From Rudaea sp. 3F27F6 (lineage in GTDB: Bacteria > Pseudomonadota > Gammaproteobacteria > Xanthomonadales > Rhodanobacteraceae): a stretch of 64,000 nt of DNA. Within the stretch, counting starts at the first letter, position 1. Each line of letters starts with the position of its first letter. Below are positions 21,945 to 26,135 of this stretch, in pieces. The stretch spans positions 248,001 to 312,000 of the forward strand of contig NZ_SCNG01000004.1 of NCBI RefSeq assembly GCF_005503555.1, given 5' to 3'. A program made the translations under genes and the position numbers. The notes below the pieces were generated by a model that was not told the origin of the DNA, did no database searches, and was given only the letters and a program-made list of their open reading frames with translations.

Positions 21945-23402
<1,458 letters not shown>

Positions 23403-23583
23403 GAATGTAGACCAGCATCGCGCGCAAACGAATCTCATCCGCCGCGAGAACACATGTTGCAGACAAGGCATAACAAGAGCCTTGTCACGCTTCCACTCGA
23501 ATGCGAATCGATATTTTCGGATTTCGTGTAGCTCTTACCTCATCGTCAGGCTTTTGTAAGCTACCTGCGACTATCGTACGCCT

Positions 23584-23671
23584 CGTAATGCAGGACTCCC
23601 CAGGTCGCTACCCCCGACCTCTGCATTGCGACCCCGAACGGCCCGCTCTCCCCAGCGGGCCGTTTTTATTT
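23584..23671 (+). ncRNA. Candidate C-rich small RNA (sX13-like) after gltD
   Basis: Downstream of gltD is a compact folded segment ending in a strong intrinsic terminator. Stem 1 is AATGCAG (23587-23593) with CTGCATT (23621-23627), enclosing stem 2 AGGTCG (23602-23607) with CGACCT (23615-23620). The terminator stem is 23639-23662. Four C runs fall where the fold is unpaired: the bulge (23598-23601), the stem 2 loop (from 23611), the linker (23632-23635) and the terminator loop (23650-23653). C-rich loops that bind G-rich ribosome sites are the hallmark of the Xanthomonas sRNA sX13. The 5' end is a guess; TATCGT at 23572-23577 might be a -10, without a clear -35. It could instead be the processed gltD 3' UTR. 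Confidence 0.45.
23639..23671 (+). terminator. Intrinsic terminator after gltD / sRNA candidate
   Basis: A perfect 9-bp stem CGGCCCGCT / AGCGGGCCG with the loop CTCCCC is followed by TTTTTATTT. It ends the gltBD transcript and any small RNA from this gap. Confidence 0.9.
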
Positions 23672-23680
23672 CCGGTCGCG

Positions 23681-23709
23681 AAAAAAAACGCCGCCCCGGA
23701 GGGCGGCGT
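23681..23709 (-). terminator. Intrinsic terminator for the YXWGXW gene
   Basis: On the minus strand the stem ACGCCGCCC / GGGCGGCGT (23688-23709) runs into eight consecutive U (A run at 23681-23688). It lies 19 bases past the stop of the 23728-24033 gene. Confidence 0.88.
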
Positions 23710-23727
23710 CGGACTCCTTTCGGTGGA

Positions 23728-24033
23728 TCAACGTTCCCAGCGGCCGGGCACGTAATGCCAACGCGGACCGCGCGGCTCCCATGCCGGCGCGACCCAGTGA
23801 TAGCCGCGGCGCTCGGACATCCAGTAGCCGCTGTGCCAGACGTGGCGGCTGCCGTTCCAGTACCAGTAGCCCGGCGCCCAGACGTAGCCTGCGCGCGGCG
23901 GCGGTACGGCGACGACGCGCGGCGGCGGCGGCGCAACACCGATGTCGACATAGACGCGCGCTTCGCCGGTCGACGGCGCGAGTGCGGCACCGGCTGCAAG
24001 CGTGGAGACAAGAAGAATGGCGGGCAAGCGCAT
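23728..24033 (-). CDS. YXWGXW-repeat-type exported protein
   Basis: A 101-residue protein with a signal peptide (LPAILLVSTLAAGAALA) and a mature part dominated by Tyr, Trp, His and Gly: YVWAPGYWYWNGSRHVWHSGYW, then YHWVAPAW and RWHYVPGRW (shown in pieces). This is the pattern of YXWGXW-repeat envelope proteins, whose function is unknown. A Pro-rich linker (APPPPRVVAVPPPRAG) sits between. It is a single-gene unit with its own terminator. Confidence 0.85.
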   Translation of the reverse strand: MRLPAILLVSTLAAGAALAPSTGEARVYVDIGVAPPPPRVVAVPPPRAGYVWAPGYWYWNGSRHVWHSGYWMSERRGYHWVAPAWEPRGPRWHYVPGRWER

Positions 24034-24165: not shown

Positions 24166-25155
24166 TCAGCGCCGCACCGGCACCTGCCAGTCGAGCAGCG
24201 CCTTGCGCGCCTGTTCGCGGCCGAGTTCGATCACTTCGGCCGCGCGATGGAATTCGTAGAACGCGCAGACATCGCGCGGCACGCTGATGATCAAATCGGG
24301 CGGTTGCGCCGCAAGTTTGTAGCGCGTGACGGTCTGCTGCACCACGTCGAGCGTGCGTCCGAACAATTCGAGCACGCCGGGATCGGCGGTGATTTCCGCG
24401 TGCTTCTTCTCGCGCTTTTCGAGCAGGCCGTCGATGAAACTGGCGATCTTGCGCCGCGGCGCCGCATGGGCGTGCTCCGTTTCGCCCGCGGCGACCGGCT
24501 GAATCGAGCCATGCTCGTCGGCGGCGGGCACCTCGTCCGTCATATCGCCGAACGTGGAGTCGGCGGCCGGCGAAGCGCCTCCGTCCGAATCGTCGGGGCC
24601 GTTGACGTCGATCGCGATGGTGCAGTCGGTCAGGTCGCGCAGGGTCGGCGTGATCGGCACCGGATTGAGCAGGCCGCCGTCGACGAGCGTGCGGCCCTCA
24701 TAATGATGCGGGCGGAACACGGTCGGAATCGAGATCGAAGCGCGGATCGCGTCGAACAGCGGCCCGCGCGAGAACCAGACCTCGCGCTGCGCGTAGAGAT
24801 CGACCGCTACGGCGGTGTAGCTGATCGGCAATTCCTCGATGCGGATGTCGCCGATCAAGGTCTTGATCTGCTCGATGATGCGATCGCCCTTGATGAAACC
24901 GCCGCCGGAGAACGTCCAGTCGAGCAGGCGCAGCACGTCGAGCCGCTGCAGGGTGCGCGACCAGTCGCGATACTCGTCGAGCTTGCCCGCGGCATAGATA
25001 CCGCCGATCAGCGCACCCATCGAACAGCCGGCGATGCTGCGGATGTCGAAACCCTGCGCGCGCAGCTCTTCGATCGCGCCGATGTGCGCATAACCACGCG
25101 CACCACCCGAACCAAGCACGAGCGAGACGGTCGGTGCCGCACGCGAAACACTCAC
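24166..25155 (-). CDS. Patatin-like phospholipase (RssA type)
   Basis: A 329-residue lipid acyl hydrolase. The oxyanion loop GSGGARGYAHIGA, the Ser nucleophile in AGCSMGALIGG and the Asp of the catalytic dyad in DGGLLNPVP are all present. An acidic, Ser-rich insert (about residues 205-245) separates the catalytic domain from a helical C-terminus, an unusual feature for RssA-type proteins. The start is a GTG at 25155 whose last bases overlap the stop of the WYL regulator gene (GTGA), so the two are coupled. Substrate lipid is unknown. Confidence 0.88.
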   Translation of the reverse strand: MSVSRAAPTVSLVLGSGGARGYAHIGAIEELRAQGFDIRSIAGCSMGALIGGIYAAGKLDEYRDWSRTLQRLDVLRLLDWTFSGGGFIKGDRIIEQIKTLIGDIRIEELPISYTAVAVDLYAQREVWFSRGPLFDAIRASISIPTVFRPHHYEGRTLVDGGLLNPVPITPTLRDLTDCTIAIDVNGPDDSDGGASPAADSTFGDMTDEVPAADEHGSIQPVAAGETEHAHAAPRRKIASFIDGLLEKREKKHAEITADPGVLELFGRTLDVVQQTVTRYKLAAQPPDLIISVPRDVCAFYEFHRAAEVIELGREQARKALLDWQVPVRR

Positions 25156-26135
25156 GCAGGCGCCCCGGCGTAGCCGCTGATCGTGAGCTGCAGCAGGATC
25201 TTCATTTCCTCGCGCAGACTCAGCGGCGAGAGAATCTCGGCATCGGGGCCGTACTTCAGCACATCCATGAGCAATTCTTTGGAATTGCTGTACGGCAGTT
25301 TCAACTCGTAGCGCCCATCCTTGAGCCACGTGCCCTGCTGTTGCGAATGCCAGTGCTCATCGGCGACCCAGCGCGCGGCGTGCGCGGAGAAGCGCACCGT
25401 CGCCCAGTTCTTCGGCGCACCGGAGAAAATGCCGTAGCTCGAGGCGAGATGCTTGTTCAACTCGTCTTCGGCACGATCGAGCGCAGGCGCATCGAGCACC
25501 TGCGCATCCTTGATGCGGTCGACGGCAAAGCTGCGCAGCGCTTCGCGGCTCTCATCCCAGGCGTCGAGATACCAGTTGTCGCGATAATGGCTCAGGCGCT
25601 GTGGCGACACTTCGCGCTGCGTCGCCTGGTCGGTCGAGCGCGCGCGATAGCTGAACTTCAGGCGCTTGCGTTCGAGCACGCTGCTCGCCACGTGGCGGAA
25701 CGTCGCTTCGTCGATTTTGCGCGTGCCATAGCCGATCACGCGGATGCGTTCAAGCGGCGCCTTGCGGGCGCCGCCGTCGGCCTGACTCGTCAATAGCTTG
25801 TCGATGCGCGTGCGGAACGGCGCGAGCGCCGAGGCGAGCACGCCCGGGCCGGTGCGCCCGATCAATTCGTTCAGCGCGAGGAGGGCCTGCAGTTCCTCGC
25901 TCGTCAGCCACAGGCCGGGCAGCTCGAAACGGTCGGCTTCGTCGGCCGCGTAGCGGAACGCCGCCTCGCCCTCGCCTTCGATCGGCGCGCCGAGCGCGTC
26001 ACGCAGGAAGGCGATGTCGCGGTAGGCCGTCGCGCGCGAACATTCGAGCTCGTCAAGCAGGCGCGCCAGCGGCACCGGATAGCGCGAGGCCTTGAGGATG
26101 CGATGCAGGGTGAGTATGCGTTCGTAACGGTCCAT
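25152..26135 (-). CDS. WYL-domain transcriptional regulator
   Basis: A 327-residue regulator of the YafY/PafC type. It has an N-terminal winged HTH (RILTLHRILKASRYPVPLAR, ECSRATAYRDIAFL), a WYL domain (KFSYRARST..REVSPQRLSHYRDNWYLDAWDE) and a WCX domain at the C-terminus. WYL domains bind nucleic acid or ligands and often control DNA damage or defence genes. Here it is followed directly by, and overlaps, the patatin gene, so it probably controls or partners that enzyme. The ATG at 26135 fits the family; the frame runs on to 26603 without resemblance. Confidence 0.9.
   Translation of the reverse strand: MDRYERILTLHRILKASRYPVPLARLLDELECSRATAYRDIAFLRDALGAPIEGEGEAAFRYAADEADRFELPGLWLTSEELQALLALNELIGRTGPGVLASALAPFRTRIDKLLTSQADGGARKAPLERIRVIGYGTRKIDEATFRHVASSVLERKRLKFSYRARSTDQATQREVSPQRLSHYRDNWYLDAWDESREALRSFAVDRIKDAQVLDAPALDRAEDELNKHLASSYGIFSGAPKNWATVRFSAHAARWVADEHWHSQQQGTWLKDGRYELKLPYSNSKELLMDVLKYGPDAEILSPLSLREEMKILLQLTISGYAGAPA

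Follow-up and report, generated by a model that had tools for sequence, protein, structure and literature searches.

The window, that is, the whole stretch of 64,000 nucleotides of Rudaea sp. 3F27F6 DNA that was analyzed, carries a candidate small RNA gene on the forward strand at 23584–23671, between gltD, which ends at 23402, and a convergent gene encoding a WXXGXW-repeat protein. The features of the locus are listed below, the parts of the RNA being those of its predicted fold.

21948..23402, + strand: gltD, the upstream neighbor
23532..23583, + strand: upstream block (CTCTTAC, TCGTCAGGCTTTTGTAAGCT, TATCGT), putative promoter region, aligned in five of six loci
23572..23577, + strand: −10-like TATCGT, putative
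23584..23671, + strand: small RNA gene, ca. 85–88 nt with a putative 5′ end, assigned from fold, homologs and pair counts
23584..23630, + strand: 5′ hairpin of 47 nt (10-bp basal stem, 8-nt bulge, 6-bp upper stem, 7-nt loop)
23594..23601, + strand: bulge GACTCCCC with C-run 1 (CCCC, 23598–23601)
23608..23614, + strand: apical loop CTACCCC; C-run 2 is CCCCC, 23611–23615
23631..23635, + strand: 5-nt linker ACCCC with C-run 3 (CCCC, 23632–23635)
23636..23665, + strand: intrinsic terminator, whose loop (23648–23653) contains C-run 4 (CCCC, 23650–23653)
23687..23710, − strand: terminator-like site, distinct from the RNA and assigned to the convergent gene
23728..24033, − strand: convergent gene for the WXXGXW-repeat protein, also in four of six homologous loci
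24166..25200, − strand: gene for a patatin-like phospholipase, also in five of six homologous loci, the sixth contig ending before it

Predicted fold and rarity of the unpaired C-runs

The RNA is predicted to fold into a bulged hairpin, a linker and an intrinsic terminator, followed by a T-rich tail. Its minimum free energy was −43.4 kcal/mol, versus −21.7 ± 3.0 kcal/mol for 200 dinucleotide shuffles (z −7.3), none of which was as low, and in a separate run none of 3000 shuffles reached it. Sequence and fold thus agree with the initial annotation, which had described a compact two-part fold with a strong terminator and four CCCC(C) runs unpaired in bulge, hairpin loop, linker and terminator loop, except that the last C of the run at 23611–23615 is paired, its other four being unpaired.

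Runs were scored as unpaired when they contained at least four unpaired Cs, a threshold passed by all four runs of the RNA; four such runs arose in 3 of 5000 dinucleotide shuffles of the RNA. With one scoring rule, 1.66 Mb of the same genome was surveyed together with the locus of sX13, a small RNA of Xanthomonas (Rfam RF02232), which was added on purpose and without gene calls. Home-made gene calls (1272 genes, 87% coding) were used, and 288 terminator-like sites lay outside called genes. Unpaired C-runs were absent from 280 of these; six sites had one, sX13 had two and RNA 23584–23671 had four, the latter two being the only ones among the 288 with at least two. G-runs, scored as a control at the same sites, gave 279 with none, eight with one and one with two.

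Distribution of homologs

When 60 genomes, the own one among them, were searched at the DNA level, the program counted 11 as matching at E ≤ 0.01. Strong homologs were found in the own genome and five others of the genus (E 3.1e-22 or better), the homolog of genome G001 was weaker (E 1.5e-7), and the remaining genomes had nothing beyond short matches, which fell on antisense tRNA or, in G006, on a terminator. An exact-pattern search of named genomes gave five records, corresponding to Rudaea cellulosilytica DSM 22992 and four metagenome-assembled genomes. When a covariance model built from six sequences (alignment A3) was run over 233 genomes of the family, 82 matched at E ≤ 0.1. Seven of the 16 same-genus genomes, the own one included, scored 49–114 bits, and the next best score among the 233 was 39.5 bits. 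The weak matches outside the genus, which make up 75 of the 82 matching genomes, were rejected as true homologs, since 19 of the 23 loci inspected showed no unpaired C-run; the other four did.

The patatin gene had 41 matches among the 60 genomes, and 30 of these loci were scanned downstream for a C-rich RNA. Six carried the RNA, one (L096) held a weak candidate and 23 had none, L086 and L090 among the latter offering only 230 and 61 bases of flank. A search of plasmids for the RNA gave no match, and a search of the open-access literature gave no description of it. The RNA appears to be a small RNA gene restricted to the Rudaea group and apparently undescribed so far.

Conservation of stems and C-runs

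Between the RNA of the window and those of four species, 82–83 of 87 positions were identical (94–95%), as against 64–74% of third codon positions in the patatin gene nearby for the same four species, a comparison from which G013 and G001 were left out. In alignment A3, 98.8% of the cells were paired, falling to 35–56% once partners were slid. Changes on both sides were observed in 3 of 28 pairs (columns 4–44, 20–36 and 22–34, in the 5′ hairpin), a number reached by 15 of 500 shuffles; further pair types were no higher than in the shuffles (112 of 500 as high). Coming from as few as six sequences, these compensatory changes support the predicted stems rather than prove them.

The motif ACTCCCCA of the bulge, the apical loop CTACCCC and the linker ACCCC were invariant across the six rows of A3, the linker being also found in the diverged homolog L008. 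The terminator-loop run was missing from one row (L007), that of the G013 homolog (L007/L018), which also lacks the upstream block. For the most diverged homolog, that of G001 (L008/L056), the predicted 5′ structure is a rebuilt, branched one, and ACCCC, TACCCC, the ACCCC linker and a CCCCC terminator loop are again unpaired. Four or more unpaired C4/C5 runs were kept in six of seven homologous loci, G013 having lost one. The initial annotation had proposed looking among relatives for conserved loops with compensatory stem changes; the C-runs kept and the three compensatory pairs answer in its favor, and the run lost in G013 goes against it. Judging from the aligned sequences, the unpaired C4/C5 runs are under selection, as in an sX13-like design, and the data suggest a tighter constraint on the displayed C-runs than on the stems presenting them.

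It is scarcely credible that the RNA is an antisense regulator of tRNA-Ala(CGC), to whose anticodon and T arms the hairpin's 3′ arm is complementary: in four other genomes, 21 of the 22 nucleotides at 23610–23631 match antisense tRNA-Ala(CGC), but the match fades to 20/22 and 19/22 with the homologs' sequences, although compensatory changes preserve the hairpin pairs, and no such match is listed in the own genome.

Probable transcription unit and gene neighborhood

Alignable sequence starts some 50–65 nt before the hairpin. The upstream block was conserved in five of the six loci compared, being absent from L018, and there was little alignable sequence farther upstream. Its −10-like element TATCGT (TATTGT in L016) would lie 6 nt ahead of the hairpin in the window. 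The absence of a proven promoter had already been pointed out, and neither a consensus sigma-70 promoter nor a recognizable −35 element was found upstream of the RNA. A search of the genome for the upstream motif gave one other match, with three mismatches, versus two matches for the reversed control.

Control by PhoB was considered and rejected: the block and the genome's own phoA promoter have CGTCA-N3-TTTTGT in common, but the block scored far too low with a matrix made from 12 pstS and phoA boxes. The best Pho box upstream of the RNA reached 4.9 bits in the window, a score matched by about 1 in 1000 genome positions, and 7.7 bits in the best homolog, versus 17.6–32.5 bits for the matrix's own boxes, which score themselves; these values do not place the RNA in the PhoB regulon. 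Pho-box-like direct repeats were seen upstream of pstS in all nine loci looked at (L219–L227), with a variant upstream of phoA (L140).

The gene upstream of the RNA varies: the window has gltD, R. cellulosilytica a methionine sulfoxide reductase (msrA-type) gene, L015 and L056 a sensor kinase gene, and L016 a GGACT gene on the opposite strand; in L017 and L018, the upstream frames that were tried gave no Pfam match. By tblastn over nine loci, of which two are the same place and one is a terminator-only match, GltD was found within an upstream reach of 1.3 to 7.5 kb only at the window's own locus. As the upstream genes differ while the upstream block and the RNA persist, gltBD looks incidental and gltD a chance neighbor, which removes the ground for the link to nitrogen metabolism that the position after gltBD had suggested. 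The pattern of conservation indicates that the RNA is probably transcribed as an independent unit. On the patatin side of two loci, some kilobases off, there is a frame 31% identical to part of GltB (L017, 780–1859 (+); L015, 1482–2447 (+)), which probably encodes another protein with a glutamate-synthase domain.

These observations make it improbable that the element is nothing more than the gltBD operon's terminator and 3′ end, devoid of any separate function. Transcripts of gltBD may end there, as between 23300 and 24000 no forward-strand terminator-like site lies between the gltD stop and the element. Against this, the element persists beside msrA-, sensor kinase- and GGACT-type genes with its upstream block kept, and for termination alone both the 47-nt hairpin, with its compensatory changes, and the C-runs conserved in unpaired positions would be superfluous.

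Relation to sX13

According to the accessible part of its description (PMC3771888), sX13 is an RNA of 115 nt with three C-rich loops, always located after polA and occurring in Xanthomonadaceae genera only; it acts on 4G motifs independently of Hfq, and regulation needs both the C-rich loops and the G-rich motifs. The likeness to sX13 drawn in the initial annotation is apt by lineage, because Rudaea belongs to the Rhodanobacteraceae (Lysobacterales) and sX13 occurs in these genomes, and it holds for the design: both RNAs are intergenic and carry C4/C5 runs in the loops of strong hairpins, terminator loop included, and CTCCCCA in a loop is common to both. By contrast to sX13, with its ca. 115 nt, three stems and place downstream of polA, the RNA has 87–88 nt and two main stems, displays C-runs also in a bulge and a linker, and has gltD, WXXGXW and patatin genes as neighbors.

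Identity with sX13 did not hold. The covariance search with the sX13 family that had been proposed gave 15.9 bits, versus a cut-off of 50, and covered one hairpin only (model positions 45–74 of 115); no Rfam family reached its gathering score in the window. Moreover, the own genome has a separate sX13 (56.3 bits), which starts 247 bp after the DNA polymerase I frame (DNA_pol_A), beside polA. Falling short of 50 bits, lying away from polA and lacking three C-loop stems at ca. 115 nt, the RNA is not sX13. Within the genus, sX13 scored over the cut-off in 8 of 16 genomes and was found at E ≤ 1e-5 in 14 of 16. Occurrences of sX13 with polA upstream in Rhodanobacteraceae (L028, 1501–1616 (+); own genome, G000:C8:1821519-1821634) lie outside the genera of the 2013 paper, and in several genomes of the family sX13 scored just under the Rfam cut-off.

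The RNA could instead be a diverged paralog, that is, a duplicated sX13 shortened to stem 2 and terminator. Model R1 matched precisely these parts in 4 of 10 sX13 loci (20–24 bits, E 0.004–0.02), three of family f2 and one of f1, and CTCCCCAG is common to the RNA and loop 2 of the sX13 of the genus. However, none of the five same-genus sX13 loci matched R1, which speaks against a recent duplication, and both the single hairpin covered by RF02232 and the different locus also count against this origin, which we regard as unlikely. The R1 matches support a like design of the two RNAs.

Candidate targets and proposed mode of action

The following mode of action is proposed. Two strong hairpins would keep the four short C-runs single-stranded, leaving them to pair with G-rich (4G) motifs at or near ribosome sites in several mRNAs, among which those for exported and membrane proteins would probably be favored; this pairing would block translation and thus repress the targets.

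With starts called with some Shine-Dalgarno credit, GGGG occurred at −25..−1 of 102 of 1271 called genes, and a hydrophobic N-terminus was encoded by 56 of these 102 (55%), versus 399 of the 1169 others (34%; p 5.5e-5, from a first ribosome-site test in which 22 motifs were tried without correction). Because such credit could build in a GGGG peak, the test was repeated with starts chosen without it. GGGG then preceded 74 of 1271 genes, with a hydrophobic N-terminus in 38 (51%) versus 357 of 1197 (30%; p 2.3e-4), and the peak at −15..−6 stayed. G-rich ribosome sites are thus present at 6–8% of called genes. AGGAG and CCCC showed no lean to hydrophobic N-termini (p 0.44 and 0.57 with credit, 0.41 and 0.57 without), GGAG and GGAGA leaned to exported proteins too in both modes of start calling, and GGGGAG alone was not significant (p 0.08 with credit, 0.16 without). 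The link between 4G motif and hydrophobic N-terminus was drawn from the C11 and C8 stretches of G000.

Longer motifs were also counted. CTGGGGAG made up 4 of 29 GGGGAG sites, about two being expected. CTGGGGAGT-N0-14-ATG occurred 16 times in six of seven genomes, versus twice for the reversed control, an excess that a general Shine-Dalgarno signal also explains; nine of the 16 sites open frames of at least 90 aa, exported or membrane-bound by eye, and seven open short frames.

The best predicted duplexes included those with the genes for an S15 peptidase (−24.0 kcal/mol), an amidohydrolase (−22.2), a DUF1304 protein (−21.5) and, in eighth place, an alkaline phosphatase (−18.2). Over 1162 gene starts, 40 duplexes reached −16 kcal/mol and six reached −18, which is no excess over the controls: the counts were 39–100 and 7–29 for eight sets of shuffled segments, and 39 and 12 for reversed ones. 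With the real segments, the counts inside genes were 20 and nine. The top-duplex genes were therefore discarded as targets, their energies being no better than those of shuffled segments. At the S15 site, G001 reads AAGGGGAGTACG and G003 reads ACGGGGATTGCGC, and the distant S15 homologs of G002 and G008 had no 4G that could be placed; at the phoA site, G008 reads AAGGGGTCCGCTC and G002 is without 4G. Exact complementarity was thus not conserved at these two candidate genes, and as the sites differ among relatives, at best a 4G core would be kept. hfq, a reported target of sX13 in Xanthomonas, was dropped too, no 4G motif having been seen around its start in six genomes. By analogy with sX13, short-seed pairing of the C4–C5 runs might escape a test based on duplex energy.

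The lack of better-than-chance duplexes fits equally well an RNA that acts not by base-pairing but as a protein decoy, for CsrA/RsmA, Rho or a cold-shock protein. Rho or pyrimidine binders could be drawn to unpaired stretches rich in C and poor in G, and one GGA adjoins the bulge. CsrA/RsmA decoy RNAs carry several conserved GGA motifs in loops, a pattern that the RNA does not show, its GGA by the bulge being lost in L007; moreover, it is almost fully structured, unlike Rho sites. A decoy role is accordingly rather unlikely, and pairing is the most likely mechanism by analogy with sX13. Taken as a whole, the reading that we favor, with moderate confidence, is that of a genus-restricted, independently transcribed, sX13-like regulator that would act in trans by pairing with 4G ribosome sites. 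If expressed, it would be a second C-rich regulator in bacteria already having sX13, and could allow a test of whether several C-rich RNAs share targets through G-rich ribosome sites.

Other C-rich RNAs

RNAs of comparable design are known from other bacteria, the likeness being one of description only and limited to the accessible parts of the sources. RepG of Helicobacter pylori has a C-rich terminator loop aimed at a long G-repeat (PMC8295292); the RNA likewise has a C-rich terminator loop, which could target G-runs, and differs from RepG in that the latter uses this loop on a long repeat. In lineages unrelated to that of the RNA, C-rich loops are aimed at Shine-Dalgarno regions by C-rich sRNAs of Staphylococcus such as RNAIII and RsaA (PMC3771888) and by the alpha-r7 sRNAs (PMC3961350). 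A broader view is put forward only tentatively, and we consider it possible but doubtful: C-loop sRNAs may form a recurrent, fast-turning class in Rhodanobacteraceae, in which two-hairpin RNAs unrelated to one another but alike in their C-run design would arise lineage by lineage in addition to sX13 (the Rudaea group; the look-alikes L058/L068, L063 and L061), all drawing on one envelope-biased pool of 4G-site mRNAs, with the 4G ribosome site as a shared regulatory address.

A 70-nt two-hairpin RNA is common to two genomes of another genus of the family (L058, 1501–1570 (+); L068, 1501–1570 (+)); its C-runs lie in a hairpin loop and in either the linker or the loop of the terminator, and it is likely another C-loop sRNA. 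Two-hairpin terminators with C-rich loops were also observed in other genera (L063, 1501–1579 (−); L061, 1501–1570 (+)).
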